25,824 nucleotides of DNA, taken from a virus. Location: the IMG/VR virus record IMGVR_UViG_3300038461_000380, positions 1 to 25,824 of that record; one strand, written 5' to 3'. The notes beneath the pieces are model-generated. The model worked only from the letters and a program-made list of their open reading frames with translations. It was not told where the DNA came from and made no database searches. A program made the translations under genes and the position numbers. Every line of letters begins with the position of its first letter. Positions within the stretch are counted from its first letter, which is position 1. This document shows positions 5,507 to 24,252 of this stretch, in pieces.

Positions 5507-6015
5507 ATATAAAATTAAATAAAACTGATTTATTTTTAGGAAAAAATTATACCACCCACATTCCAATGCTTTTAAAAGCAGTTCAAATGACCGATGGAGC
5601 AGTATTGGAACTTGGAGGAGGTTTATTTAGCACACCATTATTGCATTGGCTTTGCTCTGAAAGCAGAAGAAAATTAATCACTTATGAAAGCAACAGAGAT
5701 TTTGAAAAGTTTCTTAGAACATTTTTCAGTAGAACACATCGTATTATATTTATTGATGATTGGTATAAAATTGATTTAAGGGGTCATTGGAGCGTAGCTT
5801 TTATAGACCATTCTCGTGGAAACGAGGGGGTTGAGGGCAGGAAAAAAGATGCTTTAAGGTTGAAAGATATTGCCGATTTCATTGTTTTACACGATACAAA
5901 TGAAAAAGAATATGTTAGAGATAAGAAGTTTTGGTCGAACTTCAAGTATATTTATCACTGGACTTGGTGCACACCAAACACCAGTATAGTGAGCAATTTT
6001 TATGAAATTAAGTGA
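5503..6015 (+). CDS. Putative class I SAM-dependent methyltransferase
   Basis: 170 residues starting at the ATG that overlaps the upstream stop (ATGA). VLELGGGLFST (34-44) is a recognisable glycine-rich SAM-binding motif, E62 in LITYESN is the ribose-binding acid at the end of strand 2, and AFIDHSRGN (99-107) plus FIVLHDTNE (126-134) resemble motifs IV and the LHD segment seen in FkbM/Methyltransf_24-like enzymes. The protein is short, with no extra domain. A methylation step on a glycan is inferred from the neighbouring glycosyltransferases. Acceptor unknown. Confidence 0.65.
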   Translation: MNIKLNKTDLFLGKNYTTHIPMLLKAVQMTDGAVLELGGGLFSTPLLHWLCSESRRKLITYESNRDFEKFLRTFFSRTHRIIFIDDWYKIDLRGHWSVAFIDHSRGNEGVEGRKKDALRLKDIADFIVLHDTNEKEYVRDKKFWSNFKYIYHWTWCTPNTSIVSNFYEIK

Positions 6016-6631
6016 AGGAATAAACATTATAAGTGGAAGACCAGGGGAAATTCCCGATGCTTCCAGAAATGATTTCCCTGAATTTTTTAGGGAAATGGGT
6101 TTTAAGTCAGGTGCAGAAATAGGAGTTTATAAGGGAGAATATACGAAAATTTTAGCAAGTTCAGGATTGGAAATTTATGCAATTGACCCATGGCGTATTT
6201 ATAGGGATTATGGAAATCCAAGAGGTCAAAAAAGGTTAGACTTTCAATATGACCATACTTGTAGATATCTTTCCGATTGTCCAAATGTAAAAATTGTTCG
6301 AAAAACATCTTTAGAAGCATTAGAAGATTTTCCCGATGGTAGTTTGGACTTTGTTTATATAGACGGAAATCATCATTTTGAGTATGTTGCCCAAGATATA
6401 GTTGAATGGACAAGAAAAGTAAGGAAGGGTGGAATTGTTTCAGGACATGATTATATTTACACCAAGTCAAGGTCAGTTAATGGAGGTTGTGATGTTCATT
6501 ATATAGTTGATGCCTATGTAAAGGCAGCAAAGATAAGAAATTTTTGGGTAGTTGGAAGAAAAAAATACATTGAAGGGGAAAAAAGAGACAGATGGCGTTC
6601 TTGGTTTTGGATTAAAGAGAAAGATTGGTAA
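6002..6631 (+). CDS. Class I SAM-dependent methyltransferase (Methyltransf_24-like)
   Basis: 209 residues, ATG at 6002 overlapping the previous gene by 14 nt. AEIGVYKGEYTKIL (38-51) is the SAM-binding loop in the form usual for sugar O-methyltransferases, IYAIDPW (58-64) places acidic D62, FVYIDGNHHFEYV (117-129) supplies the metal/acceptor-side Asp-His cluster, and GGIVSGHDY (143-151) is the strand-5 motif of this group. It is distinct in sequence from the methyltransferase at 3574 and closer in pattern to the one at 5503. It probably methylates a sugar hydroxyl. The 3' end is 2 nt from the next ATG. Confidence 0.8.
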   Translation: MKLSEGINIISGRPGEIPDASRNDFPEFFREMGFKSGAEIGVYKGEYTKILASSGLEIYAIDPWRIYRDYGNPRGQKRLDFQYDHTCRYLSDCPNVKIVRKTSLEALEDFPDGSLDFVYIDGNHHFEYVAQDIVEWTRKVRKGGIVSGHDYIYTKSRSVNGGCDVHYIVDAYVKAAKIRNFWVVGRKKYIEGEKRDRWRSWFWIKEKDW

Positions 6632-6633
6632 TT

Positions 6634-7356
6634 ATGAAAAAAGGAATAATTTACTATACGGATAACAGGTTGGGGGAGCCATTATTTTCTATTGTTCAGA
6701 AAAATATTTTAAATTCAGGTCTTCCGATTGTTAGTTGTTCATTAAAACCGATAAATTTTGGAAAAAATATAGTTGTTGAAGGGGAAAGTAGTTATCCGAC
6801 AATGGTTAGGCAAATTATTACTGCCTTAGAGGCAAGTGATTCTGATTATGTGTTTTTTTGTGAAAATGATGTTTTATATCCAAAAACACACTTTGATTTT
6901 GAACCAAAAAGGGATGATATTTTTTATTATAATGGAAATGTTTGGAGGTGGTGGATTTATGGTGAGAAAGCAATTACATATGATAGGTTGATTTCTCTTT
7001 CTGGTCTTTGTGTAAATAGAAATTTGGCATTAGAAAATTATAAAATTAGATTAAAAAAAATAGAGGAATTGGAAAAAAAGGAATTTGAAACTCATGAACC
7101 AAGGATAATTAGAGTTTGGGGTTATGAGCCTGGAACCAAAAAGAAAAGAAGAGGAGGCATTACAGATGATGATTTTGAAATGTGGTATTCAGAAGAACCG
7201 ATTGTTGATTTAAGACACGATAAAACTTTCACCTGTTCAAAAGTATCATTAAGTAATTTTAAACATCAACCAATTGGTTGGATAGAAATAACAATAGATA
7301 AAATAAATTATTGGAATTTAAGAGAAATATATAATTCATGTAATTGGAAAAATTAA
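6634..7356 (+). CDS. Glycosyltransferase-like protein, paralog C of a three-member family
   Basis: 240 residues from ATG 6634, 2 nt after the upstream stop; the in-frame TTG at 6625 overlaps the previous gene and is less likely. GIIYYTDNR (4-12) and YVFFCENDVLYPKTHF (72-87) match the IIYYT and [DE]xDxLYP blocks of the genes at 2894 and 4865. The C-terminal IPYWG is degenerate here (INYWN). It has an extra charged, Lys/Glu-rich segment around residues 110-160 not seen in the other two. Same tentative role as its paralogs; divergence suggests a different donor or acceptor. Confidence 0.55.
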   Translation: MKKGIIYYTDNRLGEPLFSIVQKNILNSGLPIVSCSLKPINFGKNIVVEGESSYPTMVRQIITALEASDSDYVFFCENDVLYPKTHFDFEPKRDDIFYYNGNVWRWWIYGEKAITYDRLISLSGLCVNRNLALENYKIRLKKIEELEKKEFETHEPRIIRVWGYEPGTKKKRRGGITDDDFEMWYSEEPIVDLRHDKTFTCSKVSLSNFKHQPIGWIEITIDKINYWNLREIYNSCNWKN

Positions 7357-7365
7357 CAAAAAAAT

Positions 7366-8343
7366 ATGAAAAACAAATGTGATTTAAGCATTTTAATTCC
7401 AAGTCGAAATGAGGAGTTTTTAAAAAATACAATAGATGACGTTTTACTTAACATAGAAGCAGATACTGAAATTATTGTTGTTTTTGATGGTCAATGGCCC
7501 GTAGAACCGATACCGCAAAATGAGAGGGTAAATATAATTTATGTTAAAGATTCTATTGGTCAAAGGGCAGCGACAAATCTTGCTTGTAAGTTAGCAAGGG
7601 GAAAATATGTAATGAAGATTGACGCTCATTGTTCTTTTGATAAGGGTTTTGACAGAAAAATGATAGAAATGTTTAATATGGCTGGTGAAAATACAACTAT
7701 GGTTCCAATAATGCGTAATTTATGGGCATTTGATTGGAATTGTAGAAGATGCGGTTGGAAAAAGTATCAAGGTCCTACTCCTAAAAGATGCCCTCAATGT
7801 AATGATTCCCGCTATATTATTAAAAAGATTATGTGGGTTGGAAAACATAATCCTCAGTCAACTTCTTATTGTTTCGATTCAGAACCGCATTTCCAGTATT
7901 TTGAGGATTATAAACATAGACCGATTTATGAAAAAGATAAAAAAGAAAAAGGCTTAACAGAAACAATGAGTTTGCAGGGTTCTTGTTTCATGTGCACTCG
8001 TGAAAAATACTGGGAATTAAATATTTGTGATGAAAGTTTTGGTTCTTGGGGTAATCAGGGTATTGAAGTAGCTTGTAAAACTTGGTTATCGGGTGGTCAA
8101 GTATTAGTTAATCATAATACTTGGTATGCACATATGTTTCGCACGCAAGGAGGAGATTTCTCTTTTCCATACGAACAGTCAGGAAGAGAAGTTTTAAAAA
8201 CAAAAAATAAGGTTTGGAATTTTTTTCTTGATGGAAAATGGGATAAACAAAAATTTAAAATGAGTTGGCTTGTTGAAAAATTTAATCCTGTGCCTGGTTG
8301 GACACAGGAAAGTATAATAAAATTAAAAAATAATAAAAATTAA
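7366..8343 (+). CDS. Family 2 glycosyltransferase with inserted zinc ribbon, GalNAc-transferase-like motifs
   Basis: 325 residues. LSILIPSRNEEFLKNTIDDV (7-26) is the GT2 N-terminus, VVFDGQW (38-44) the next strand, and KIDAHCSF (84-91) the D86-A-H88 metal site. WGNQGIEVACKTWLSGGQVL (228-247) followed by NTWYAHMFR (251-259) closely mirrors the WGGEN...W-x-x-GG-x-L...GHxFR region of GT27 polypeptide GalNAc-transferases. Between the two halves there is CRRC (126-129) and CPQC (142-145), a four-cysteine zinc ribbon not present in the sibling enzyme at 1415. The ribbon may bind acceptor or stabilise the fold. The gene starts 9 nt after the previous stop and ends 1 nt before the next ATG. Confidence 0.82.
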   Translation: MKNKCDLSILIPSRNEEFLKNTIDDVLLNIEADTEIIVVFDGQWPVEPIPQNERVNIIYVKDSIGQRAATNLACKLARGKYVMKIDAHCSFDKGFDRKMIEMFNMAGENTTMVPIMRNLWAFDWNCRRCGWKKYQGPTPKRCPQCNDSRYIIKKIMWVGKHNPQSTSYCFDSEPHFQYFEDYKHRPIYEKDKKEKGLTETMSLQGSCFMCTREKYWELNICDESFGSWGNQGIEVACKTWLSGGQVLVNHNTWYAHMFRTQGGDFSFPYEQSGREVLKTKNKVWNFFLDGKWDKQKFKMSWLVEKFNPVPGWTQESIIKLKNNKN

Positions 8344-11027: not shown

Positions 11028-12182
11028 ATGGCAATAAATACTGGAGACCAATCAAGATGGCTAAAAGGAAATCCAGCCATTATTCAGTATAATTCTGATA
11101 ATTTTGATTTAGGCTCAGAAACTTATTGGCTAAATGGAAAACCAGTTATTATTCAGTATCAGAAAACTGGGGCTGTTTCTTTTTCACCATCTTTATCTCC
11201 AAGTATAAGTCCATCTATATCGCCTTCATTAAGCCCTTCAATCTCTCCGAGTATTTCTTTGAGTCCAAGTATCTCGCCAAGTATCAGTCCTTCCTTTTCA
11301 CCCTCTATAAGCCAAAGTATTAGTCCATCTTTTTCACAAAGTATTTCCCCTTCCATAAGTCCATCGGTTTCGTTAAGTCCGTCATTTTCTCCCTCTATTA
11401 GTTTTTCTTTTTCACCGAGTATCAGTCCATCGGCCAGTCCTTCGATTTCGCCTTCTTTCTCTTCTTCAGCATCTCCTTCGCTGTCTCCATCTATTAGTCA
11501 TTCAATAAGTCCATCTGTTTCCTTAAGTCCTTCTTTTTCTCCTTCCTTAAGTCAATCTTTAAGTCCTAGCTTTTCCCCATCATTAAGCCAATCAATTTCC
11601 CCAAGCGTTTCTTTATCACCGAGCTTATCTCCTTCATTAAGCTCATCAATCAGCCCATCTATTAGTCCCTCAGTATCTTTAAGCCCTTCTCTGTCTCCAA
11701 GTTTGAGTCCTTCATTGAGCCCCTCATTAAGTCCCAGCATTAGCTTATCTGTAAGCCCTTCTGTAAGCCCTTCAATTGTTTTTCCTGATTATACTCGGGG
11801 AGAATATGCTTCTCCTCCAATTAATAATAATGATTTATCTACCGCCTATTCTGCTCAAGATTATTCTGATGTTTCTGCTGATGATGATAAAAGAGTTGGT
11901 CAAACTGCTACCTCTGATTATGCAATACATCAATTTAAAGATTATATCAATTCAGCAGGGGCAAACTTTTATTGGAAGGGACAGACAAATTGTGCTCCTA
12001 CCTTAAGTGCGGTTTATCTTCAAATTTACAACAAGAACACTTCTTCTTGGGAAAATCTTGCTTTTGACAATTCTTCTACAAGAGATGTGGATTTTATATT
12101 GACTGCAAACAAGACGGATTTAACGAACTATAAAGATATTAATGGAGGTATAAGTTGTCGCGTATATCAATTAGACATATGA
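11028..12182 (+). CDS. Ser-Pro repeat protein with C-terminal beta-sandwich-like domain
   Basis: 384 residues in three parts. Residues 1-50 contain a duplicated motif, RWLKGNPAIIQY and YWLNGKPVIIQY, spaced about 23 residues apart. Residues 51-250 are an uninterrupted repeat in which Ser occupies essentially every second position and the alternate positions are Pro or Ile/Leu/Val/Phe (for example SPSISPSLSPS). Residues 252-384 are a normal-composition domain (YTRGEYASPPINNNDL, FYWKGQTNCAP, VYLQIYNKNTSSWENLAF) resembling discoidin/jelly-roll ligand-binding modules, and it may be a tip domain. The ATG is 3 nt after the upstream stop, and the 3' end overlaps the radical SAM gene as ATGA. It is probably a virion or cell-surface stalk with a terminal binding domain. 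Confidence 0.75.
   Translation: MAINTGDQSRWLKGNPAIIQYNSDNFDLGSETYWLNGKPVIIQYQKTGAVSFSPSLSPSISPSISPSLSPSISPSISLSPSISPSISPSFSPSISQSISPSFSQSISPSISPSVSLSPSFSPSISFSFSPSISPSASPSISPSFSSSASPSLSPSISHSISPSVSLSPSFSPSLSQSLSPSFSPSLSQSISPSVSLSPSLSPSLSSSISPSISPSVSLSPSLSPSLSPSLSPSLSPSISLSVSPSVSPSIVFPDYTRGEYASPPINNNDLSTAYSAQDYSDVSADDDKRVGQTATSDYAIHQFKDYINSAGANFYWKGQTNCAPTLSAVYLQIYNKNTSSWENLAFDNSSTRDVDFILTANKTDLTNYKDINGGISCRVYQLDI
11178..11777 (+). repeat. Ser-Pro repeat tract 1 (600 nt, in frame)
   Basis: Encodes 200 residues of strict Ser-X alternation. The DNA uses all six Ser codons in mixed order (tct, tca, tcg, tcc, agt, agc) and several codons for Pro and the hydrophobic residues, so the peptide is far more regular than the DNA. 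The coding strand is strongly pyrimidine-rich. Confidence 0.9.
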
Positions 12183-12793: not shown

Positions 12794-13626
12794 AAATTTT
12801 GATAATTGGAGGATGTGGGTTTATTGGTAGTCATTTAGTTGAAAAATTGAAAGATAATAAATTGGTTGTTTTAGATAATAATTTTACTGGTAATTATAAA
12901 ATAAAGGGAGTGAAATACATTAAGGGAGAAAGTAAAGATATAGACAAATTGATTAAATTTAAGCCAGATATTATTTATCATTTAGGAGAATATTCAAGAT
13001 TAATAACAAGTTTTGAAGACATAGAAAGAGTGATTGAATATAACGCCATAGGAACATTAAGGGTGGTTGAATTTTGTAGAAAAAATAAAATAAGATTGAT
13101 TTATGCTGGTTCAAGTTCAAAATTTGGCAACAAAGAAAGTCCATATAGTTTTATTAAAAGTTTTAATTCAGAATTAATAAAAAGATACGGAAAATGGTTT
13201 GGGTTGAATTATGCAATAGCTTATTTTTATAGTGTTTATGGAGAAAGAGAAATAAAAAATGGAAAATATGCAACAGTAATTGGAATTTTTAGTGAAAATA
13301 TTAAAAATAAAAAGACACATATTGTAAATAATGGAAAACAAAAAAGACACTTTACTAATGTTTCAGATATCATAGATGGATTATTGTTGATTGGTAAAAA
13401 AGGAAAAGGGGAATATTGTTTAGGAAACAGAAAAGAATATTCAATATTAGAAGTCGCTAAAATGTTTGGAGGAAAAATTAAAATTCAAAAAGGAAAAATG
13501 GGAGATAGTAGTTTTATAAAATTATACGATAAAAGAATAAAAAAATTAGGATGGAAGCCAAAAGTAAACCTAAGGGATTATATTAAAAATGAAAAAGATA
13601 TTGGTCGTAGTCTTAACGCATATTGA
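12790..13626 (+). CDS. NAD-dependent nucleotide-sugar epimerase/dehydratase (extended SDR)
   Basis: 278 residues, ATG overlapping the preceding stop as ATGA. GGCGFIG (7-13) is the dinucleotide-binding loop, YHLGEYS (63-69) the usual HxA-type strand in a slightly altered form, AGSSSKFG (106-113) carries the catalytic Ser, and YSFIK (119-123) the YxxxK pair. KRHFTNVSDIIDGLL matches the R-x-F-x-x-V-x-D-x-x-x-G substrate region. Clearly related to but different from the enzyme at 561. It is more Lys-rich and AT-rich than its neighbours. It probably makes the donor for the glycosyltransferase-like domain encoded just downstream, with which it overlaps by 38 nt. Confidence 0.87.
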   Translation: MKILIIGGCGFIGSHLVEKLKDNKLVVLDNNFTGNYKIKGVKYIKGESKDIDKLIKFKPDIIYHLGEYSRLITSFEDIERVIEYNAIGTLRVVEFCRKNKIRLIYAGSSSKFGNKESPYSFIKSFNSELIKRYGKWFGLNYAIAYFYSVYGEREIKNGKYATVIGIFSENIKNKKTHIVNNGKQKRHFTNVSDIIDGLLLIGKKGKGEYCLGNRKEYSILEVAKMFGGKIKIQKGKMGDSSFIKLYDKRIKKLGWKPKVNLRDYIKNEKDIGRSLNAY

Positions 13627-16600
13627 TTATTTTGGATTATTTCCCAGAGTTTGGGAGAATATTTTAAAATTGGATAAACCTGAAGGATACCAGGTTGATT
13701 TTATTGCGGTTACAAATTTTACAAACGACCAATCGGAAGAATTTAAAAAATACATAGCAGATAATAATATTGATTTAAGAGTGCCAGTTATAGACATCGA
13801 AGCATATAGAAAACAAATGCCCGATGGTTGGAAAGAAATGGTTGGAGAATTTACCGAAGAAGCTATATTTAAACAAATTGAAACAAGGAATTATTATAGG
13901 CAGATAATGATTGATGGCGGTTATGATTATATGCTTAATGTGGATGGCGATATTTTGCCACCTAAAAATGCTCTTATAAAATTGCTTTCAGATAATAAAG
14001 ATATAGTTGGTGCGTGGACTTATAGTAAAAGACACTGGGGTTGTTTGGCGATGCCAGATAAAATTAAATATGGGAAAGTTTACGAAGTGATAATGAATGG
14101 AACATATTGTTTGTTGGAAAATAGAAAGATAACAATGAATTATCCATATAGTGTTTATCAAGAGAAAGGAGTAACCGGAACCGATGATCATAAAAGATAT
14201 ATAGATATAAGAAAAAATGGTGACAAAATGTATGTAGACCCATCTATATACTGTGAACATTTGATAGAATCAACTGGTGAAATTTATAAACCAACAGAAA
14301 AACAACTTAAGGAACAATTTGCGGTAACCGATATAGTTTCTCAAGAAAAGGAAAATTTAAATTCTACAACTTTTAAATATACTCAAAAAGATAGCAATAA
14401 TGATAAATTATGTGAAGTAGAAGTAGGAAACATTAATAGTAAAAATTTTGAACCACATATTAAAATTTCAAAATGGGATGGAGAGGTAAATTTAGAAATA
14501 TTTTCTGATGGAAATGGAGATTATATTTTTGAAGAAGAAAAGCATAAACTTATTAATAAAAAACTTGAATATCATTTTTATCCTAAAAAACCAGAAGAAA
14601 TTGGATTTGATAATTGGTATGAACCATATGAAACTTGTTTGGAAGGTGGATTTGAATTTGAAGTTATATTAAAAGAAAAGCCAGCAAGCAATATTATTTC
14701 CCTTAACATAGGTGGAGATATCGATGATTTAGACTTTTATTATCAGCCTTTTTTAACATCAGACGAAAGATTGTTGATGGAGGTTGAAGGAAAATTATTA
14801 AGAATTCCAGAAGTGGAAGGTTCTTATGTTATTTATCATAAAACTAAAAAAGATGATTATTCTCAGATAGGTGGTAAAAACTATGGAACGGGAAAAATAG
14901 GGGATATCTTAAGACCCAGGATGATTGATGCAAACGGAAAAGAAGCATGGGGAATAATAAATATAGATACTAAAAATAGAAAATTAACTATAGAAATACC
15001 GCAGGATTTTTTAGAAAATGCAGTTTATCCAATAAGACATGCTACTGGATTAACATTTGGATATGGGACAGCAGGTGCTTCTTCAACTAATCTATCATCT
15101 ACATCAGATATAGCAGGTTCTGTTTTTGTTGGTGCAATAGGAACATCTCAAAATATGACAGCCGTTTGTAGTGGGACAGGAAAAGCTACAATGTCTATTT
15201 ATCTTGATACTTTATACACCAAAACAGATGTTACGGCTGAATTCACACCGCCAGCAACTAAAAGTTCAATAACACAAAATTTAGGAGGTGTAATTTTATC
15301 GGCTGTGAATTATTGGCTTTTGATGAGAGCTTCTGGTGCTGGGGGATCGGGTGAAGATTTAACTACTTTTTATTATGATGTCGGAAGTGCCAATCAAGGT
15401 TGTATAGCCGATTCTGGTTCTGACGCTCAAGGATATACCTGGCCTGCAAGTTTGTCTTTTACTTCTAAGAATTCAAATAAATATTCAATTTACTGCACAT
15501 ATACTACTGGTGTTAGCTTTAGTCCTTCTATTTCTCCTTCAATCTCTCCCAGCGTAAGTCCATCATCTTCTATTTCTTCCTCTTTTTCACCGAGCGTCAG
15601 TCCCTCAGTTTCCCTATCAACTTCATTAAGTCCCTCGCTTTCAACATCAATTTCTCCAAGTATAAGTCCTTCTGTTTCGCCTTCAATATCTTTAAGTCCA
15701 TCAATCTCTCCGTCAATATCACCAAGCATATCTCCTTCGTTTTCGCCTTCTGCGAGTCCCTCCTTATCGCCATCAATTAGCCCATCGGTTTCACCGAGTG
15801 TTTCAAAGAGTCCATCAATCTCTCCGTCAATATCACCAAGCATATCTCCTTCGTTTTCGCCTTCTGCGAGTCCCTCCTTATCGCCATCAATTAGCCCATC
15901 GGTTTCACCGAGTGTTTCTTTGAGTCCAAGTATATCCCCAAGTGTAAGTCCTTCCATCTCGTCATCAATAAGTCCAAGTGTTAGCCCCTCGATTTCACCC
16001 AGTATTTCTCCTTCTGTAAGCCCTTCAATATCGTTAAGCCCTTCATTTTCTCCTTCAATAAGCCCCTCCCTTTCACCGAGCATTAGCCCATCGGTTTCAC
16101 CGAGCGTTTCAAAGAGTCCATCAATTTCCCCATCAATTAGTCTATCAATTTCGCCTTCATTGTCTCCATCAACCAGTTCTTCGATAAGTCCCTCCGTAAG
16201 TCCACCGATAACAACAAATCTCAAAGTAAATTATTGGCATATAACACCTTTGGGTGCTCCAAGTTTTTCACCGAGCATTAGCCCTTCGGTGTCTCCTTCG
16301 GTTTCAATTTCTCCTTCTCTGTCTCCGAGTCTTAGTCCTTCTTTTTCTCCAAGCGTCAGTCCTTCGGTTTCATTCAGTCCTTCGCTTTCACCATCGATAA
16401 GTCCAAGCATTAGTCCCTCAATTTCGTTCAGTATTTCGCCCTCTATAAGCCCATCGGTTTCATTGTCTCCATCTTTAAGTCCCAGTATCTCTCCCTCTTT
16501 TTCACCGAGTCTTAGTCTCTCTGTTAGTCCTTCTTTAAGCCCATCGGTATCTATTAGCCCTTCTATTAGTCCAAGTATCAGTCCTTCGGTTTCTCAATCT

Positions 16601-18082
16601 CCCTCTCTTAGCCCAAGCATTAGCCCATCTGTAAGCCCAAGCGTTTCCCTTTCTCCTTCTTTAAGTCCGAGCGTCAGTCCTTCTATTAGTCCATCAATTT
16701 CAATTTCTCCTTCTCTTTCTCCAAGTATCAGCCCTTCTTTTTCGCCAAGCGTTAGTCCTTCGGTATCAATTAGCTCTTCCTTTTCGCCTTCTTTGAGCCC
16801 AAGTGTCAGTCCTTCTCTGTCAATTAGTATTTCACCATCAGTTAGTCCTTCTGTTTCTATTAGTCCTTCGTTTAGCCCAAGTTTGAGCCCCTCAATATCA
16901 CCCTCAATATCGCCAAGTATCTCTCCTTCGGTATCTCCTTCGGTTTCTTTGAGTCCTTCTATTAGTCCCTCTCTTTCGCCATCTTTGTCGCCCTCTCTTT
17001 CTTTTAGCATTAGTCCATCTATTAGTCCCTCTATTTCACTAAGTCCTTCTCTTTCGCCTTCAATTAGTCCAAGTTTGAGTCCCTCAATCTCTATTTCTCC
17101 TTCTATAAGTCCAAGTATTAGTCCTTCTGGTTTTTCTAAAAGTCCTTCTATTAGTCCATCTATATCTTTTAGTCCGAGTTTAAGCCCATCAATAAGTCCT
17201 TCTATTTCTAAGTCTCCGAGTATCAGCCCCTCTGTTAGCCCGTCTGTTAGTTTAAGTCCTTCGTTTAGTCCATCTGTTAGTCAAAGCGTTAGCCCTTCCA
17301 TTTCTATATCGCCTTCTTTCAGCCCGAGCATTTCTTTCTCTGTAAGTCCTTCAGTTTCGGCTTCACCATCTCTAAGCCCATCTATCAGTCCATCGGTTTC
17401 ACAGTCCCCTTCCTTGAGTCCCAGTATTTCTCCTTCGGTTAGCCCATCGGTTTCAATTAGCCCAAGTTTTTCACCAAGTATTAGTATCTCTATAAGTTCA
17501 AGTATTTCCCCTAGTATCAGCCCTTCTTTATCGCCAAGCATTTCGAAAAGTCCTTCTTTTTCTCCAAGTATTTCACCTTCGCTAAGTCCATCAATATCTT
17601 TAAGCCCTTCATTTTCTTTAAGTATTTCTCCAAGTTTGAGTCCCTCGGTTTCAAAATCACCCAGTTTCAGCCCATCATTAAGTCCTTCTATCAGTCCTTC
17701 TGTTTCTTTATCGCCCAGCTTTAGCCCTTCTTTTTCGCTTTCAATCAGTCCTTCTGTTTCTCCAAGCATTTCAATATCGCCAAGTATCAGTCTTTCATTG
17801 TCGCCATCAATTAGTCCTTCGGTAAGTCCAACGCCTCCTCCATTTGTTTTGGAAACTTTGGCGGGAAATTCTGTCTTGGAATTAGTCAAAGAAAACACCC
17901 TGTCTGGGTTAACTATAGTAGAGAAAGGAAGGCCTTGCCCCGTTGAACTTGTTTCTGTGATTAGAACACCATTGGAAACAGAAATTATTGAAATTGAAAG
18001 GACGCCCTTAAAGACAGAGATAATTGAAATCAAAAGAACACCATCGGAAACAGAAATAAAAATAAAAGATTGTGGTTTTTAG
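13589..18082 (+). CDS. Giant fusion: glycosyltransferase-like domain + beta-rich domain + long Ser-Pro repeats
   Basis: 1497 residues in one open frame. Residues 1 to about 240 look like a GT-A glycosyltransferase: KKILVVVLTHIDYFGLFPRV, then YMLNVDGDILPP (114-125) with D119-G-D121, then CLAMP and YCEHLIE, where H224 is a candidate third metal ligand. Residues about 258-640 are beta-rich (FEPHIKISKWDGEVNLEIF, LEGGFEFEVILKEKP, LDFYYQPFLTSDE, EGSYVIYHKTKKDD, GWTY-free AVYPIRHATGLTFGYG) and resemble a domain I associate with phage structural proteins. Residues 645-1414 are the Ser-Pro repeat, broken once at 873-891. Residues 1459-1494 are three 12-residue repeats (RTPLETEIIEIE type), ending in a lone Cys. 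No ATG lies between the glycosyltransferase-like and beta-rich parts, so the fusion appears genuine. Probably a virion stalk or fibre. Confidence 0.7.
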   Translation: MKKILVVVLTHIDYFGLFPRVWENILKLDKPEGYQVDFIAVTNFTNDQSEEFKKYIADNNIDLRVPVIDIEAYRKQMPDGWKEMVGEFTEEAIFKQIETRNYYRQIMIDGGYDYMLNVDGDILPPKNALIKLLSDNKDIVGAWTYSKRHWGCLAMPDKIKYGKVYEVIMNGTYCLLENRKITMNYPYSVYQEKGVTGTDDHKRYIDIRKNGDKMYVDPSIYCEHLIESTGEIYKPTEKQLKEQFAVTDIVSQEKENLNSTTFKYTQKDSNNDKLCEVEVGNINSKNFEPHIKISKWDGEVNLEIFSDGNGDYIFEEEKHKLINKKLEYHFYPKKPEEIGFDNWYEPYETCLEGGFEFEVILKEKPASNIISLNIGGDIDDLDFYYQPFLTSDERLLMEVEGKLLRIPEVEGSYVIYHKTKKDDYSQIGGKNYGTGKIGDILRPRMIDANGKEAWGIINIDTKNRKLTIEIPQDFLENAVYPIRHATGLTFGYGTAGASSTNLSSTSDIAGSVFVGAIGTSQNMTAVCSGTGKATMSIYLDTLYTKTDVTAEFTPPATKSSITQNLGGVILSAVNYWLLMRASGAGGSGEDLTTFYYDVGSANQGCIADSGSDAQGYTWPASLSFTSKNSNKYSIYCTYTTGVSFSPSISPSISPSVSPSSSISSSFSPSVSPSVSLSTSLSPSLSTSISPSISPSVSPSISLSPSISPSISPSISPSFSPSASPSLSPSISPSVSPSVSKSPSISPSISPSISPSFSPSASPSLSPSISPSVSPSVSLSPSISPSVSPSISSSISPSVSPSISPSISPSVSPSISLSPSFSPSISPSLSPSISPSVSPSVSKSPSISPSISLSISPSLSPSTSSSISPSVSPPITTNLKVNYWHITPLGAPSFSPSISPSVSPSVSISPSLSPSLSPSFSPSVSPSVSFSPSLSPSISPSISPSISFSISPSISPSVSLSPSLSPSISPSFSPSLSLSVSPSLSPSVSISPSISPSISPSVSQSPSLSPSISPSVSPSVSLSPSLSPSVSPSISPSISISPSLSPSISPSFSPSVSPSVSISSSFSPSLSPSVSPSLSISISPSVSPSVSISPSFSPSLSPSISPSISPSISPSVSPSVSLSPSISPSLSPSLSPSLSFSISPSISPSISLSPSLSPSISPSLSPSISISPSISPSISPSGFSKSPSISPSISFSPSLSPSISPSISKSPSISPSVSPSVSLSPSFSPSVSQSVSPSISISPSFSPSISFSVSPSVSASPSLSPSISPSVSQSPSLSPSISPSVSPSVSISPSFSPSISISISSSISPSISPSLSPSISKSPSFSPSISPSLSPSISLSPSFSLSISPSLSPSVSKSPSFSPSLSPSISPSVSLSPSFSPSFSLSISPSVSPSISISPSISLSLSPSISPSVSPTPPPFVLETLAGNSVLELVKENTLSGLTIVEKGRPCPVELVSVIRTPLETEIIEIERTPLKTEIIEIKRTPSETEIKIKDCGF
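15521..17830 (+). repeat. Ser-Pro repeat tract 2 (2.3 kb, in frame)
   Basis: About 770 residues of Ser-X alternation, X being Pro or Ile/Val/Leu/Phe with occasional Lys, Gln, Ala or Thr. The dominant unit is the 4-residue SPSx, with 2-residue phase inserts such as SLSPS or SKSPS. A 19-residue non-repeat island (PPITTNLKVNYWHITPLGAP) is encoded at 16205-16261 and may mark the join of two once-separate tracts. Codon use is mixed except for the 114-nt duplication listed separately. Confidence 0.9.
15695..15918 (+). repeat. Perfect 110-bp direct duplication, 114-nt period, inside Ser-Pro tract 2
   Basis: Bases 15695-15804 and 15809-15918 are identical by direct reading. They are separated by the 4-nt aaag, giving a 114-nt (38-codon) tandem period that keeps the frame. 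A further near-copy of part of it, 42 of 43 bases, lies at 16083-16125 (compare 15777-15819). Most of the tract is diverged at the DNA level, so this looks like a recent expansion. Confidence 0.92.
17963..18070 (+). repeat. Three 36-nt repeats at the C-terminus of the giant fusion protein
   Basis: Encodes three consecutive 12-residue units, RTPLETEIIEIE, RTPLKTEIIEIK and RTPSETEIKIKD. Alternating charged and beta-branched residues suggest short amphipathic beta-strands, possibly a trimerisation or anchoring foot for the Ser-Pro stalk. DNA identity between the units is only partial. Confidence 0.8.
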
Positions 18083-18235: not shown

Positions 18236-19195
18236 ATGTCAACTTTAACACCAATAGAAATAGAAATTTCTTGGTCAACAAAATCAGGTGCAGTTAATTA
18301 TAGAATTTATAAAAGACAACCTAATTCTTATTGGTCTTTGATTGCCACCGTTGATGCTCCAACAACAAGTTATATTTTTAATGGATATGAAAATACTCAA
18401 TATATGTTTGGAGTAAGAGTTTGGAATGGTTCTTATGAGTCGGATTTGGCTTTGCAAAATTATCCACAAGATGTTTCTGCAACTTGGCAAACACCCTCCA
18501 ACACTCCAAGCGGTCTTCCAATGGTGACTCCGTATGATATTCAGTATGTTACCAAAGATGAATTTTTAACCTCTCCAATAGCAAAAGGATTGGGATATAC
18601 AGTTGATTCTATTGATTATACTGATGGAACTATAGACCACGCCCTTTTAAAAGCTTCGAGTTATGTTAATAGATATTGCCGTAGATATTTTAATAAAATG
18701 ACGATAGATGAAATTTATCCGAATGTTACTATACAGGTTTCTAATCCAAGATTAACTACTGTTCCTTTACGATATGGTCCCGTTCAGAACATAAATTCAA
18801 TAACAATACAGGTCTTGAAATGGTTTATTCCTTTTACAAAAGATTATTTAATACAACACCCTGAGCAGAGATTTTATCAAATAGTTCCAATGATTTCTTC
18901 TTCTGGAACCACTGGAAGTCCTATCCCCTCTGTTTTGCTGGAGCAATCAGATTTAGGAATAATTTGGACAAATTATACTTTTGGATATGATGTTATCCCA
19001 GAGGATATAAAGCACGCCGTTGAAGTGATAGCAGGACAGGAATTGGCAATGTTGAAACAAAATCCGATGGGAGCAACTTCTTTAAAGACGGGAAACTTTG
19101 CTATTACATTTGGAAAAAATGAAGAAAATCCTGTATTGAATGAAGTTAAAAGCATTTTAAATCCTTGGGTGCTTCATACCCTTCGCATGACATAA
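18236..19195 (+). CDS. Head-tail adaptor (gp6-like connector) with N-terminal fibronectin type III domain
   Basis: 319 residues from ATG 18236; the frame extends to 18203 but that start would lie inside the hairpin. Residues about 1-80 form a fibronectin type III domain: TPIEIEISWSTKSGAVNYRI, then YTF-like strands TSYIFNGYENTQYMFGVRVW and the SYESDLAL end. Residues about 95-319 resemble the HK97 gp6-type head-tail connector: a first helix after TIDHALLKASSYVNRYCRRYF, a beta-rich middle (NSITIQVLKWFIP), and IPEDIKHAVEVIAGQELAML plus NPVLNEVKSILNPW near the end. This protein would form the ring docking under the portal. The gene order that follows supports the call. The fused Ig-like decoration is unusual. 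Confidence 0.68.
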   Translation: MSTLTPIEIEISWSTKSGAVNYRIYKRQPNSYWSLIATVDAPTTSYIFNGYENTQYMFGVRVWNGSYESDLALQNYPQDVSATWQTPSNTPSGLPMVTPYDIQYVTKDEFLTSPIAKGLGYTVDSIDYTDGTIDHALLKASSYVNRYCRRYFNKMTIDEIYPNVTIQVSNPRLTTVPLRYGPVQNINSITIQVLKWFIPFTKDYLIQHPEQRFYQIVPMISSSGTTGSPIPSVLLEQSDLGIIWTNYTFGYDVIPEDIKHAVEVIAGQELAMLKQNPMGATSLKTGNFAITFGKNEENPVLNEVKSILNPWVLHTLRMT

Positions 19196-19601: not shown

Positions 19602-20021
19602 ATGAATTTATCTATTACAACAATAGGATTGCCAGAAACAAAAGCCTTATTATCAGCAAAGGCAGGATTAGCATTGAAGGCTTCTATTTCTGCAATTAAC
19701 TGGGCTTGTGCCAAGATAATGTCCGAAACAAGAGAAGCAATTTCAGTTGCGGGACCTCCTGCCAGTCAGCCAGGTGATTTTCCACGCAGAGAGTCGGGAG
19801 ATTTATTGAGGTCAATAGGAATTGGAAAAATGGAAACATCTTTGACAAAAATAAGTAGAAGTGTTGGAGCAAATCCTGATAGTGAAGATATCGGTTATGC
19901 TATGTATTTAGAATTTGGAACTTCCCGTATTTCTCCTCGTCCCTATCTTTCAGTTATTACAGAAAAAAACAGGGATTCTATTTTAAATAATTTTGCAAGT
20001 GAAATAAAAAAGATATGTTAG
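19602..20021 (+). CDS. HK97 gp10-like neck / tail-connector protein
   Basis: 139 residues, starting 2 nt after the head-closure stop. The diagnostic block is GYAMYLEFGTSRISPRPYLS near residues 105-124, the YxxxxEFGTxxxxPRPFL signature of the HK97 gp10-like family. Upstream are GDFPRRESGDLLRSI, also typical of the family (the PxxRTGxLxxSI region). In related siphophages this protein sits in the neck between head-closure ring and tail terminator. It overlaps the next gene by 7 nt. Confidence 0.85.
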   Translation: MNLSITTIGLPETKALLSAKAGLALKASISAINWACAKIMSETREAISVAGPPASQPGDFPRRESGDLLRSIGIGKMETSLTKISRSVGANPDSEDIGYAMYLEFGTSRISPRPYLSVITEKNRDSILNNFASEIKKIC

Positions 20022-20407
20022 AAGTTGTTGAATACATTGTAAATATTTTAAGCAACAACGCAGATATTCAAGGTTATGTAGGAACCAGAATTTTTCCTAC
20101 GGGGGTAGATATCACGCCCGAAGCTCCTGATTTATTTCCTCTTATAACTTTTCATTCTATTTCCGAGATAACCAGAACAGTTCCAAGAGGAGCAAGAGAG
20201 GCTATAATTCAGATAGATGTTTGGAGTATTTTGTCTCAACTTCAAGTAGAAGAAATTTCAGAAAAAATAATAAGTATTTTAAATTTTATTCAATTTAGAG
20301 ATGGAACTTGCTTAAGATGGAATAGGGAAGATGGTGCAGTTGATTTAACGGAAAGTGACCGTAGAATTTGGAGAAAATCTTTGCGATTTCGCTATTGGGC
20401 GAAATAA
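20015..20407 (+). CDS. Tail completion / tail terminator protein (DUF3168-like)
   Basis: 130 residues with 7-nt overlap upstream. The N-terminal helix (LEVVEYIVNILSNNADI) followed by GYVGTRIFP, then LFPLITFHSISEI, EAIIQIDVWS and the late helix EEISEKIISILNF, matches the layout of DUF3168 tail-completion proteins (alpha, then P-x-[IV]-x-F, then a hexamer-forming beta-sheet with [IV]-Q-[IV]-D-[IV]-[WY]-[SA]). It caps the tail tube at the neck. A 37-nt A/T leader with a GGTCGTAT element follows before the first tail-tube gene. Confidence 0.75.
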   Translation: MLEVVEYIVNILSNNADIQGYVGTRIFPTGVDITPEAPDLFPLITFHSISEITRTVPRGAREAIIQIDVWSILSQLQVEEISEKIISILNFIQFRDGTCLRWNREDGAVDLTESDRRIWRKSLRFRYWAK

Positions 20408-20444: not shown

Positions 20445-21080
20445 ATGCCAGTAATTTCATCGGGGGTAGGAGTTTCAGAACGTTTAACTTTTAATTCAGG
20501 CTATCTTGATTTTGGCAATAGCAGTGATGGATATAAAAGATTGGTTGATGTGGAAAGCATTTCAGTTGATGTTTCTTTTGCCGAAAAGGAAGTTCGGCGT
20601 TTAAATTCAATAAAAATAGCAGCCCACAAAAGAGCTACTTTAAAAGTTAATTTAAAAGCTAAGACAAGGTCAGTAAATTGGGAGATACTTCTCAATGTTA
20701 TGGGAACGGATACTGTTGAGGCATCAGGCAGAACAGTTAGTATTTATAATGGACAAATTGCTACTGCCAATAATCCAGTTTTTACTTCTTATGTTGACGA
20801 TGATGTTGCGAATCCAGTTCAGTTTCAATTAACAGACGCCATAATAGTTTCTTCACCAACAACTTCTAATTTAGAGGATTTCGGGACAATGGATTTGGAA
20901 CTTTTCGCAAGGGATATAAAGATTTACACCGTCTCTACCTCGCCTTCAAAAAGTCCTTCTGCATCACCTTCTGTTAGTCCTTCTGTTTCAAAATCACCTT
21001 CGGCAAGTCCTTCAAAATCAACTTCAAAATCTCCTTCAAAATCACCTTCTGTTAGTCCTTCAGTTTCACCAAGTCCATAA
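20445..21080 (+). CDS. Tail tube protein paralog 1 with C-terminal Ser-Pro repeat tail
   Basis: 211 residues. Residues 1-163 are a tail-tube-like domain paralogous to the next gene: both begin MP-I, share ERL-FNSG-DFG, RRLNSIK-A-HKR, PVFT-YVDDDVA-P-QFQ and the final L-E-G--DL-L--RD motifs. Residues 164-211 are a perfectly alternating Ser-X tail (SPSKSPSASPSVSPS and similar) containing five Lys, unlike the more hydrophobic tracts elsewhere. If this is the major tube subunit, every ring would display a fringe of six such tails. Position between the tail terminator and the assembly chaperone fits a major tail protein. No Shine-Dalgarno sequence; A-rich leader. Confidence 0.75.
   Translation: MPVISSGVGVSERLTFNSGYLDFGNSSDGYKRLVDVESISVDVSFAEKEVRRLNSIKIAAHKRATLKVNLKAKTRSVNWEILLNVMGTDTVEASGRTVSIYNGQIATANNPVFTSYVDDDVANPVQFQLTDAIIVSSPTTSNLEDFGTMDLELFARDIKIYTVSTSPSKSPSASPSVSPSVSKSPSASPSKSTSKSPSKSPSVSPSVSPSP
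20934..21077 (+). repeat. Ser-Pro repeat tract 3 (144 nt) on the tail tube gene
   Basis: Encodes 48 residues with Ser at nearly every second position and Pro, Lys, Ala, Val or Thr between. Same architecture as tracts 1 and 2 but Lys-bearing and short, and it ends at the stop codon with no tip domain. Confidence 0.9.
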
Positions 21081-21111
21081 AATAAAAAGGTCGATATAAT
21101 TAAAAATAAAA

Positions 21112-21141
21112 TAGTTCAATTTTGATGGGAAAATTGAATTA
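21112..21141 (+). promoter_or_regulatory. Hairpin between the two tail tube paralogs
   Basis: ttcaatttt (21115-21123) pairs perfectly with aaaattgaa (21130-21138) around the 6-nt loop gatggg, extending with a G-U and two A-U pairs to 12 bp. It lies in the 69-nt gap just upstream of the second paralog. It has no T run, so it is more likely an mRNA processing/stability element or translational modulator than a terminator. Confidence 0.5.
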
Positions 21142-21149
21142 ATAAAAGT

Positions 21150-21626
21150 ATGCCTATTATAGCTGCTGGAACACCAGTCAATGAGCGTTTGATATTTAAT
21201 TCTGGATTCATTGATTTCGGTTCGAATCGTATAGTTGATGTTGATAATGCTGCGGTTGAAATTTCTTTTTCAGAGGGAGAGTTAAGGAGATTAAACTCCA
21301 TAAAACTTGCTTCTCATAAAAGAAAAACATTCAAATGCGGATTAAAAGCAAAGGTAAAAGCAATGAGCAAAGAAGTTTTTGGAACAATATTCGGAACTAC
21401 TGCTACTGATGGAAGCGGAACGTTAATTACGGTTAAGGATGGACAGCCAACCCAGTTAGACCCTGTTTTTACTGCTTATGTTGACGATGATGTTGCAAAG
21501 CCAATTCAATTCCAGTTTACGGATGCTGTTTGTATGTCAATGCCAGTCACTTCTTCCCTTGAAAATTATGGGGAGTATGACTTGGATTTGGCTTGCAGAG
21601 ATGTTCAAGTGTTCTACTACGAATAG
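21150..21626 (+). CDS. Tail tube protein paralog 2, without Ser-Pro tail
   Basis: 158 residues, collinear with residues 1-163 of the preceding gene and clearly homologous (NERLIFNSGFIDFG, RRLNSIKLASHKR, PVFTAYVDDDVAKPIQFQ, LENYGEYDLDLACRDVQVF). It ends where the Ser-Pro extension begins in paralog 1. One of the two is presumably the major tube subunit; the other may be a minor decorated or undecorated variant, analogous to phages that make a tube protein with and without an extra C-terminal domain. The sequence cannot tell which is more abundant. Confidence 0.75.
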   Translation: MPIIAAGTPVNERLIFNSGFIDFGSNRIVDVDNAAVEISFSEGELRRLNSIKLASHKRKTFKCGLKAKVKAMSKEVFGTIFGTTATDGSGTLITVKDGQPTQLDPVFTAYVDDDVAKPIQFQFTDAVCMSMPVTSSLENYGEYDLDLACRDVQVFYYE

Positions 21627-21672: not shown

Positions 21673-22002
21673 ATGTCAGATTTACCACAAATAGTTAATC
21701 TTCCCTTTGAAATAGAAATAGGGGAAAATAAATTGTTAGTAAAAAGAGCTGGTATTTTTGAGTTAGCTCAATTAAGGGATTTTTTAGAGAAGAATACAGG
21801 CAATCAAGATATAAAGGTTTTGCCTTATGCGATTTATCTTTGTGCTAAAAAAGTATATCCTGATATAACCGAAGATTATGTTAACGATATAATGCCAGCT
21901 ATTTTACTAATTGAAAAACCTGATTTGGTTTCTGAAATTATGCAAAAGTTGGGTTTTATTTTGCCTCCGAAGTCAAAGAGAACGGAGGAGGCGAAGAAAT
22001 AA
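21673..22002 (+). CDS. Tail assembly chaperone, upstream part (gpG-like)
   Basis: 109 residues, just before the tape measure gene, the invariant place of the tail chaperone pair. It has a beta N-terminus (INLPFEIEIGENKLLVKRAG pattern), then helices (ELAQLRDFLEK, YAIYLCAKKVYPDITEDYV) and a Lys/Glu-rich end. A canonical -1 slippery heptamer lies at codons 94-95 (see the separate entry). Slippage would replace the last 14 residues with a 77-residue extension, giving a 172-residue second product. In lambda the equivalent gpG/gpGT ratio is needed for tail assembly. Confidence 0.75.
   Translation: MSDLPQIVNLPFEIEIGENKLLVKRAGIFELAQLRDFLEKNTGNQDIKVLPYAIYLCAKKVYPDITEDYVNDIMPAILLIEKPDLVSEIMQKLGFILPPKSKRTEEAKK
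21951..21957 (+). promoter_or_regulatory. -1 ribosomal frameshift slippery heptamer G_GGT_TTT
   Basis: gggtttt with zero-frame codons ggt-ttt fits the X_XXY_YYZ rule exactly. The -1 frame is open from 21936 (after a TGA at 21933-21935) through 22190, so a slip here joins the two chaperone parts without meeting a stop. Compare G_GGA_AAG in lambda G-T. Confidence 0.75.
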
Positions 22003-22007
22003 GTTGG

Positions 22008-22190
22008 ATGGAGCTTTTCTGCCTTATAACAGAAAAAACTGGTTGGACGATTGAAGAGATAGGAAAACTTACACTTCTTAATATAAAAGATATGCTTGAT
22101 GTTTGGACAGGGAAGAAAAAAAGTAAAGAAAAATCTTCATCTTCTCAAAAGGTTAAGCAGTTTGTTGAAATGTTAAAAAAAACTAAATAA
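22008..22190 (+). CDS. Tail assembly chaperone, downstream part (gpT-like), probably read by -1 frameshift
   Basis: 60 residues from the ATG at 22008, but the frame extends back without a stop to 21936. The residues before the ATG (YFASEVKENGGGEEISW) run naturally into MELFCLITEKTGWTIEEIGK, so the Met is probably internal and the protein is made as a fusion to the upstream part after slippage at 21951-21957. TGWTIEEIGKLTL resembles the helical T-domain that binds the tape measure protein. It ends with a Lys/Ser-rich tail, 4 nt before the tape measure ATG. Confidence 0.7.
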   Translation: MELFCLITEKTGWTIEEIGKLTLLNIKDMLDVWTGKKKSKEKSSSSQKVKQFVEMLKKTK

Positions 22191-22194
22191 TAAA

Positions 22195-24252
22195 ATGGCA
22201 GGAGAAGTAGGAACAATAAAAACAAAAGTTGAAGCTGATTCTTCTCAGTTTGTTTTAGCAATGCAACAGTGTGTTAGTCAGTTGGGAAGTTTTAGCGGGG
22301 GAATCGGTAAGGTTATTTTATCATTGGGAGCGGCAGGGATAGCATTTGGGGTAATTACGAAATTCGTTGAAAGTTCTATTAGTTCTTTTGTAGATTTGGC
22401 TAATAAAACAAGAAATCTACAAACTATAACTGGGGCTTCAGCAGAGGAATCTTCAAAGTTTGCTCAAACAATGAATGTGGTAGGGATTGACACCAATTCT
22501 CTAACTCGTTCTTTCACTGGGATGTCGAAATCGATGGAAAAACACCCAGAATTATTTAATGCCCTTAACGTTGAATTAAAAAATACCAATGGGACACAAA
22601 GAGATTCTTTAAGCATATTTAAAGATGTTATTTCGGCAATACAAAATCAAGGGAGTGCCGTTACAAGGACACAAGTTGCCGTTGAAATGTTCGGAATGGG
22701 ATACAGAAGTCTTATACCCTTATTATCTTTGTCAAAAGAACAATTAGATGCAGTTGAATCTTCAATAAAGAATACTTTAACTGATGATGATTTAAAAAGG
22801 GCAAGAGAATATCAATCACAAATAGGTTTATTAAAGAATGAGTGGAGTGAATTAAAGGAATCTATGGGAAAAGTAGCTGTTCCATTTTTTACAAAAGAAA
22901 TAATAAGTATAAGAGGAATAATAGATTTAATAAAGGGAGTTCCATTGTCAGAAATAAGAAAACAAAATCAAGAATTAGAAAGTTCGGCTAAAAACGCAAC
23001 TACTGCAATTACAGATGAAAATAGTTCTTTGATTGATTTATTTGATACTTTGAAAAAGATAACCGATAGTGCCAAACAATTTACTCTTTCTGTGAGGGAA
23101 GGTTTAGAAAAACAAAAAGAGGAAGTTTCAGATTTAAAAAAGAGCTACGATAGGAATATTTCAAGCATAGAAGATGATTTTATTTCTTTAGAAAAGAAGA
23201 TATCAGATAGTAATAGTAAATTTATTGATAACCAAAAAAAATTAAAAGATGAATTAGATAAAACTAACGAAGATATAAATAGTTCTTTTGAAGATTCTTC
23301 AAGCTCAATAACTTCCAGTTATCAAGATTCTTTAGCTTCAATAGTTGAAAGCCATGAAAAAAATCTTGCCGATAAGAAAAAACAACTTTCCAACTCTTTA
23401 GCTTATGGACAAGATATAAATGAGGTAGAAATAGCCAACTTACAGAATGAAATAGCAACGGAAGAGGCATTTTTAGCAAAACACTCTTCAGAGGTATCTT
23501 CTGTTCAAGTAAAGGCGGGAGAAGATGAGATTGAGCAACTAAACGAAAAATATTCTAAAGAACAAGCAGATGCTCAGGCAAAACGCGATAAAGACATAGC
23601 AGATGCTCAAGCAAATTATAAACAGCAACTTTCTGATTTAAAAACATCTCATATAAATGAAATATCCGAATACAGTGATCAGGCAAAAAAGATAAAAGAA
23701 AGATTAGACCAGACAACCCAAGATTATCACGATAGTTTAAACAAAATGAAAACTGATTTTGCCAACCAAATGGCTGATATGTTGGCAAGTTCAACTATCA
23801 ATATAAATGATATTAAAAATAAATTATCGGAAATAGCTCCTGACGTTCTATCTACTTTTGAACAAGTTCTTCCACAAGTAAAGGATTTAACGAAATGTTT
23901 TGAAGATACAGTTGATGACAGTGTAAATAATATACAAAATAATTTATCAGGTATTTCAACGAAAAGTAGCGGGGCATCCATTCCTAAAAGTTTTTCTTTA
24001 AATGCTGGATTGTCTGGAGGGGTTTTGGATATTCCAGGTTTTCAGTCTGGTGGAATAGTTCCTAAAACAGGATTAATTTATGCTCACGAAGGAGAAACCG
24101 TAATACCAAAAGGTGGAAATTCTGCCAGTTTTTCAGTTAATTTTTATGGTGCACAGAGTTTTAATACAAAACAAGACCAAGATGATTTAGTAAATAAAAT
24201 AAGAAAAGTTTTAATGCGTGATTATGAATTAAGCAAACTTGGGGTTTATTAA
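22195..24252 (+). CDS. Tail tape measure protein
   Basis: 685 residues. The N-terminus (GTIKTKVEADSSQFVLAMQQ) is the usual start of phage tape measure proteins, followed by a hydrophobic segment (KVILSLGAAGIAFGVITKFV, about 38-58). Residues 75-210 hold the TMP/minor-tail helical domain (ITGASAEESSKFAQTM, VAVEMFGMGYRSLIPLL). Residues about 285-530 are long charged coiled coil with internal near-repeats (ADAQAKRDKDIADAQANY). Near the C-terminus FQSGGIVPKTGLIYAHEGET is the common TMP end motif (GGxxxxTGxxxxHxGExVIP). It sets tail length and is ejected with DNA. At the rule-of-thumb 0.15 nm per residue it implies a tail of roughly 100 nm. Confidence 0.88.
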   Translation: MAGEVGTIKTKVEADSSQFVLAMQQCVSQLGSFSGGIGKVILSLGAAGIAFGVITKFVESSISSFVDLANKTRNLQTITGASAEESSKFAQTMNVVGIDTNSLTRSFTGMSKSMEKHPELFNALNVELKNTNGTQRDSLSIFKDVISAIQNQGSAVTRTQVAVEMFGMGYRSLIPLLSLSKEQLDAVESSIKNTLTDDDLKRAREYQSQIGLLKNEWSELKESMGKVAVPFFTKEIISIRGIIDLIKGVPLSEIRKQNQELESSAKNATTAITDENSSLIDLFDTLKKITDSAKQFTLSVREGLEKQKEEVSDLKKSYDRNISSIEDDFISLEKKISDSNSKFIDNQKKLKDELDKTNEDINSSFEDSSSSITSSYQDSLASIVESHEKNLADKKKQLSNSLAYGQDINEVEIANLQNEIATEEAFLAKHSSEVSSVQVKAGEDEIEQLNEKYSKEQADAQAKRDKDIADAQANYKQQLSDLKTSHINEISEYSDQAKKIKERLDQTTQDYHDSLNKMKTDFANQMADMLASSTININDIKNKLSEIAPDVLSTFEQVLPQVKDLTKCFEDTVDDSVNNIQNNLSGISTKSSGASIPKSFSLNAGLSGGVLDIPGFQSGGIVPKTGLIYAHEGETVIPKGGNSASFSVNFYGAQSFNTKQDQDDLVNKIRKVLMRDYELSKLGVY

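Follow-up and report, generated by a model that had tools for sequence, protein, structure and literature searches.

Decorated tail tubes and tail proteins have been described in several phages, and they are summarised here from the available parts of the sources cited. In SPP1, C-terminal Ig/FN3 domains stand outside the tube in a 3:1 mixture that arises by frameshift (PMC8718954), and frameshifted extensions of tail proteins occur in the lactococcal 936 phages (PMC6669499). The lambda protein gpV consists of a tube domain (residues 1–156) and an Ig domain (157–246) lying outside (PMC8718954). In mycobacteriophages, capsid and tail-tube proteins are glycosylated at their C-termini by phage glycosyltransferases (GTs) (PMC12363180, PMC12619734, citing Freeman et al. 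2023).

The window studied here, by which we mean the whole stretch of DNA analysed, corresponds to a linear virus record of 25,824 bases. It contains two tandem genes, designated MTP1 and MTP2, of which only the first ends in a Ser-Pro-Ser-x (SPSx) tail. Like SPP1 gp17.1/gp17.1* and TpeX of the 936 phages, this arrangement would give a fraction of the tube subunits a C-terminal extension on the outside. In SPP1 and the 936 phages, however, a single gene yields the extension by programmed frameshifting at its end, and the added part is an FN3/Ig or carbohydrate-binding domain, whereas here there are two genes, no frameshift and a disordered SPSx array. In lambda gpV, T5 pb6 and YSD1_22 a tube domain is likewise followed by a C-terminal part, which lies outside the tube, but that part is a folded Ig domain present on each subunit and encoded in a single gene. 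The virus resembles the mycobacteriophages Che8, Corndog and Myrna, which bear C-terminal glycans on capsid and tail-tube proteins according to papers citing Freeman et al. 2023, in encoding its own GTs. It differs from them in that glycosylation is inferred here, that a dedicated repetitive array would serve as the acceptor and that its GT at 7366–8343 lacks a match among 50,697 phage records at E 1e-10. Decorated tubes and glycosylated tube C-termini are thus known separately, and their combination is new here. No report of SPSx tails was found among the papers listed on tube paralogs with extensions, glycosylated tubes, O-glycosylation of phage capsid proteins, serine-rich repeats of phages and virion glycosylation, in a collection lacking most subscription papers.

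We propose that the products of the two genes are paralogous subunits of a non-contractile tail tube and that they go back to one MTP gene, which duplicated in the lineage of this virus and of which one copy acquired the SPSx tail. Both proteins would most likely co-assemble in one tube as mixed hexamers or mixed rings, in which MTP1 subunits send out a flexible cationic bristle on the tube's outside and MTP2 subunits remain bare, so that the MTP1:MTP2 ratio would set the density of the brush. The bristle and two other SPSx arrays of the window would most likely be acceptors of O-linked sugars attached by the phage's own GT cassette, and the resulting sugar brush might serve for shielding, for weak reversible adhesion or for keeping virions apart. 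The complete picture of a mixed tube with outward MTP1 bristles, probably O-glycosylated by phage GTs, is in our estimate slightly favoured, a judgement that applies to the picture as a whole and allows for steps that are not independent of each other.

The tail locus and its two tube paralogs

The tail genes follow the order head-tail adaptor, the ORF at 19210–19599, neck gene, tail terminator, MTP1, MTP2, two small ORFs, tape measure gene and a gene for a fibre-like protein (Table 1). Judged by synteny, MTP1 and MTP2, located between the terminator and the chaperone/tape measure genes, occupy exactly the place of the siphophage major tail protein. The same order of tail genes was found in two related loci, L003 and L008. 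The two small ORFs (21673–22190) look like a probable chaperone pair in the 0 and −1 frames and resemble lambda G/GT. The N-terminus of the adaptor (18236–18500) appears by eye to be an FN3-type domain, which is also present in L003 and L006 and absent in L007 and L008, and the tail terminator of L006 (10835–11494) has an added C-terminal part (219 aa vs about 130 aa in relatives).

Table 1 Features of the window, their positions and the basis of their assignment
Feature	Positions	Strand	Basis
Rest of sugar cassette	1403..7356	+	GT2 (1403), methyltransferases (3538, 6002), radical SAM/SPASM (4110)
GT-like ORFs of sugar cassette without Pfam match	starts 2176, 2894, 4796, 6625	+	
GT2 glycosyltransferase, seed of alignment A7; relatives accompany SPSx arrays	7366..8343	+	PF00535 E 5.1e-13
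Second SPSx-array protein	11028..12182	+	
1497-aa protein with GT-like N-terminus and an SPSx array of about 770 residues behind it	13589..18082	+	N-terminus by eye; weak phrog_1574
Head-tail adaptor	18236..19195	+	phrog_442 E 8.5e-15
ORF between head-tail adaptor and neck gene	19210-19599		
Neck / tail completion protein	19602..20021	+	phrog_5 E 1.8e-6
Tail terminator	20015..20407	+	phrog_347 E 1.4e-6; PF11367 E 7e-5, just under cut-off
MTP1 leader, AGGTCG motif preceded by AA	20408..20444	+	
MTP1, 211 aa, tail-tube paralog with C-terminal SPSx tail	20445..21080	+	ORF, paralogy, fold, family alignment A6
Ser-X tail (MTP1 residues 164-211) with 5 Lys, predicted to be disordered	20934..21077	+	
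MTP2 leader, same AGGTCG motif	21088..21149	+	
MTP2, 158 aa, tail-less tail-tube paralog	21150..21626	+	ORF, fold
Probable tail assembly chaperone (G-like)	21673..22002	+	position between MTP2 and tape measure; weak phrog_7947 (0.0048), family without function
Putative second chaperone ORF (T-like), -1 frame	22008..22190	+	ORF
Tape measure protein	22195..24252	+	phrog_339 E 1.1e-11; PF10145 E 1.2e-7, just under cut-off

Neither copy matched a named MTP family in Pfam or PHROGs, nor did solved structures yield a useful match by sequence; the two proteins were recognised by fold and synteny. AlphaFold models of moderate confidence (pLDDT 67.7 for MTP1 and 70.6 for MTP2) showed the tube beta-sandwich with one helix in both proteins and an unstructured tail in MTP1. 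The matches obtained with both models by Foldseek and VIA were overwhelmingly phage tubes, tubes of contractile systems and Hcp. Fold and position in the locus agree, and both proteins almost certainly belong to the tube family, as an earlier note made from the DNA alone had assumed.

The motifs that this note had seen in common between the two genes reflect true paralogy: a local alignment contains 79 identical positions out of 155 and scores 424, far above the best of 1000 shuffles (53). The identities at the three codon positions (0.58/0.74/0.38) indicate that both genes are under selection at the protein level. The motif AGGTCG has four forward copies, two of them in the leaders of MTP1 and MTP2 and the other two in the region of the GT cassette. 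Its presence in both leaders points to a duplication that took in the leader as well.

The extension of the first gene proved to have the coordinates, lengths and composition originally described. Its 48 residues comprise 24 Ser, 11 Pro, 5 Lys, 4 Val, 2 Thr and 2 Ala and no acidic residue, with Ser at alternate positions throughout. MTP2 has no C-terminal extension, and SPS-coding sequence was found in no frame behind its stop codon. The proposal that a separate gene is the source of the tail therefore stands, and programmed frameshifting is rejected, the tail being encoded in frame in MTP1. The Ser codons of the tail come from both codon boxes (TCT 6, TCG 2, TCA 11, AGT 5), a variety which rules out a recent origin by DNA slippage. 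Another possibility is that recombination with the genome's other arrays left the tail behind as a neutral low-complexity by-product. Three array genes are present in this one genome, and the long array (13589–18082) contains copies 114 bp apart, at 15695 and 15809. We nevertheless regard such an origin as improbable, since the Ser codons are diverse, the alternation is strict and similar tails recur on tube and cement proteins of other viruses. The choice of residues is also unlike that of the other arrays: among the variable residues, Lys accounts for 5 of 13 in the MTP1 tail vs 7 of 228 in the long array, and Ile/Leu/Phe for 0 of 13 vs 160 of 228.

Queries with single proteins revealed no close relatives, and relatives were found by alignment queries. 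The alignment-based scans gave viral contigs only; no relatives were found in bacterial or archaeal genome contigs, and MTP2 had no match in cultured phages. The 19 distinct MTPs of the relatives are 155–166 aa long and end 0–6 residues past the domain. Exactly one MTP is present in each of 19 of the 20 relative records, many of which are fragmentary, and none in the fragment L006; an SPSx-type tail occurs on none of the MTPs in these 20 records. The original remark that the tail is confined to the first copy is thus accurate. The single untailed MTPs of the relatives place the duplication and the tail in the lineage of this virus, although a second copy may lie outside the fragmentary records, and inheritance of the tail from a family ancestor was rejected on the same grounds. 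In the phylogenetic tree, MTP1 and MTP2 are sisters with weak support (89/42), and both group with L003 at 95/88. The duplication of one MTP gene probably took place within this lineage, and one of the copies gained the tail.

The two copies have not diverged equally. The branch of MTP1 is longer (0.62 vs 0.36), and MTP1 departs alone from residues common to L003 and L131 at 17 sites, MTP2 at 10, so MTP1 may have a specialised rather than a bulk role. Nineteen sites show conservation of 90% or more among the 19 relatives; the family residue is present at 18 of them in MTP1 and at all 19 in MTP2. At the 37 sites conserved to at least 80%, MTP1 keeps 29 and MTP2 33, compared with 31 each for the single-copy proteins of L003 and L131, two relatives that also went into the definition of these sites. 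By this measure, both copies look functional.

The greater divergence of MTP1 would also fit a special ring, the first or the last of the tube, beside the terminator or the baseplate, with the tail touching neighbouring tail parts. Contractile systems place tube paralogs at the ends of tubes, and baseplate chains of AFP/PVC were among the structural matches. Such a role seems unlikely to us because MTP1 retains 18 of the 19 family-conserved sites. Moreover, the tail does not need a special ring: the tubes of three other viruses (L172, L177 and L183) are tailed with no second copy seen, so that all of their subunits would bear the tail. The incorporation of both MTP1 and MTP2 along the tube, which we consider probable, has a structural parallel in the Hcp2–Hcp3 heterohexamer of a type VI secretion system (PDB 9vne). 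As far as the available description goes, it contains paralogs of this fold in one ring, which suggests that such paralogs can share a ring; it belongs to a secretion system and carries no bristle.

Direction of the MTP1 C-terminus

Residues 16–162 of MTP1 were aligned to residues 12–155 of lambda gpV over 123 residues with an rmsd of 4.5 and a Z score of 8.0, which is middling by the tool's own scale and denotes likeness of fold rather than a model of the hexamer. The alignment ends at gpV residue 155 and the Ig domain starts at 157; the MTP1 tail thus begins where the lambda chain leaves the tube outwards. On this model comparison, the C-terminus of MTP1 lies very probably outside the tube, in line with the outward fringe originally proposed.

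Ser-Pro-Lys motifs occur in some DNA-binding proteins, and the MTP1 tail resembles them. With its five Lys and no acidic residues, the tail might therefore be thought to face the lumen and to bind DNA or the tape measure protein. We hold this to be very improbable. The tail starts at the point where gpV passes into its outward Ig domain, and the tailed tube of L177 has no Lys in its tail. A lumen that is negatively charged, as described for several phages (PMC8718954), could attract Lys, yet a tail held there leaves the passage of DNA unexplained. An outward bristle remains the preferred arrangement.

SPSx arrays and the associated GT family

The impression that the tail is peculiar to MTP1 did not hold. 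By sequence, it belongs to a type of module carried by several virion proteins, both in this genome and in those of other viruses. The window contains two further array proteins and a sugar cassette (Table 1), in which epimerases are also present. Two proteins of the window exceed the cut-off for PF00535, and there are other GT-like ORFs, so this phage genome carries GT genes. In the 1497-aa protein (13589–18082), a GT-like enzyme and its presumed acceptor are apparently joined in one chain.

The GT encoded at 7366–8343 has 303 relatives in viral contigs, of which the best 80 (L151–L230) were kept. An array ORF is present in 63 of these 80 loci, and all of the 89 array ORFs lie on the strand of the GT. 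In 42 of the 63 array loci, the array starts at most 1.5 kb downstream of the GT, and where at least 4 kb of downstream sequence is available, an array was found in 49 of 51 loci (for these distance counts, the GT end was set to 10940 in loci whose match starts at 10001). The background is low: arrays were present in 1 of 23 MTP-relative loci and in 2 of 78 Phage_tube_2 loci without GT. Near-duplicate loci occur in both the GT and the tube sets (e.g. L155/L156, L202–L204, L225/L227, L235–L242), so these counts are inflated, the loci are not independent events and Fisher tests overstate independence.

The association was also approached from the side of the arrays. A DNA-pattern scan recovered at least 120 stretches, from which SPSx, TPSx and other loci were taken. 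Two or more homologs of the cassette accompany 9 of 21 SPSx loci, which were picked by hand, 1 of 8 TPSx loci and 0 of 92 others among the pattern loci listed, and 0 of 26 MTP-relative loci. An automatic classifier based on Ser only gave a weaker table (8/28 vs 2/92, Fisher p 1e-4). When whole records were compared with 25 control records, a hand-picked subset of the 92 other pattern loci, a GT matching the A7 profile was found in 13 of 21 SPSx records vs none of the 25 controls, and without the six seeds of the alignment in 7 of 15 vs none of 25. PF00535 proteins over the cut-off were present in 15 of 21 SPSx records vs 2 of 25 controls; five of the six remaining SPSx records are shorter than 17 kb. 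The window itself combines SPSx arrays and a member of the A7 GT family in one record. One exception is L148 (9856–12444; record G019, 23 kb), an MTP relative with SPSx arrays and no GT2 match. The link between GT and array is thus strong but not strict.

This association with one GT family gives substance to the remark that the tail is possibly glycosylated. Glycosylation by the cassette appears likely, somewhat less so than incorporation of both proteins along the tube. The presence of SPSx bristles on coat and tail proteins, usually beside one GT family, suggests a sugar-coated virus surface. The GT at 7366–8343, the only one used as query, had no match by tblastn at E 1e-10 among the 50,697 phage records and is in this search unrelated by sequence to GTs of cultured phages.

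Tailed and tail-less proteins in other viruses

SPSx tails of 42 and 53 residues were found on the tubes of L172 and L177, which belong to Phage_tube_2 (PF18906, E 5.4e-40 and 3.5e-42). In L177, the tube gene is preceded by a terminator gene (phrog_179) and followed by small ORFs and a 985-aa tape-measure-like ORF, which had no match in PHROGs. A third case is the 418-aa protein of L183 with a tail of 22 residues, followed by a small ORF and a tape measure gene (phrog_1533) and assigned as a tube by position only. With these cases, tubes of two viral lineages besides that of the window bear SPSx tails. The tail sits on a single-copy gene in these viruses, so duplication is not required for it. 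Among the best 80 of the 288 loci found with the tube domain of L177 and L172, SPSx tube tails occur only in these two viruses, and the GT cassette is found in the same two loci; the other 78 have neither the GT nor an SPSx tube tail. This within-family comparison rests on two related viruses, whose tubes are 51% identical and whose tails may stem from one event. The tubes of L255 and L257 carry other C-terminal extensions, and two of the 78 GT-less loci have an array on another ORF.

These loci bear on the question of whether arrays and cassette are connected by function. They might be mere co-inherited neighbours in an exchange module of tail fibres, with no enzyme–substrate relation, and the MTP1 tail would then be an unmodified cationic fringe binding an anionic host surface. 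Many arrays do belong to long fibre-like ORFs situated close behind the GT (the 42 of 63 loci mentioned above), and a tail richer in Lys and devoid of Ile/Leu/Phe in comparison with the long array would suit an unmodified fringe. Against this, the arrays of the window, L177 and L183 on tube or cement proteins are kilobases away from the GT, and the arrays of L041 come with GT-like genes outside the A7 profile. The coincidence of tube tail and GT in the same two of the best 80 (of 288) Phage_tube_2 loci also argues for a closer relation. Simple co-inheritance appears unlikely to us.

Tandem copies with and without a tail are not limited to the window. Tandem paralogs were listed for the window together with L100–L230, and for 29 hand-chosen loci together with the window. 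L041 (6718–8834) encodes three tandem cement (decoration) proteins, 70–78% identical, of which two have SPSx tails and one has none. They precede a Mu-like capsid protein, and three GT-like genes, unmatched by the A7 profile, lie behind. Their assignment is based on phrog_1731 for the two tailed copies and on PF09956, for which the tailed first copy stays below the cut-off. In L108 (3517–4426), a 128-aa protein is followed by a 58%-identical copy of 165 aa with an SPSx tail and then directly by a GT-like/methyltransferase cassette homologous to that of the window. For ten further proteins with C-terminal tails, PHROGs searches on the N-terminal portions returned no function that could be used.

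A broader reading can tentatively be derived from these cases. Many uncultured tailed viruses might share a transferable virion-brush system, consisting of a dedicated GT2-based cassette and SPSx acceptor arrays, which tube, cement or fibre proteins could acquire, and tandem duplication into tailed and tail-less copies (the tube of the window, the cement protein of L041, the protein of L108) would be a recurrent way of setting bristle density. If true, viruses of which no cultured member was found would have a general means of equipping selected virion proteins with a repetitive, probably sugar-bearing brush, the likely enzymes being encoded alongside. Phage GTs, commonly assumed to act on DNA or on sugars of the host surface, would thereby gain a specific predicted substrate, and the density of virion decoration, governed by pairs of tailed and tail-less genes, would become open to test. 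The wider GT–array system may prove a larger finding than the tube pair.

A different use of tandem tube genes was observed in L265 (9992–12404) and also in L266, L267, L268, L279 and L281. These loci resemble the window in having two tandem genes, here of Phage_tube_2, one of which has extra sequence. In contrast to the window, the addition is an insert of about 150 residues inside the second copy rather than a C-terminal array, and the GT cassette was not found there. Judged from the sequences, such pairs are another paralog-based way to decorate a tube.
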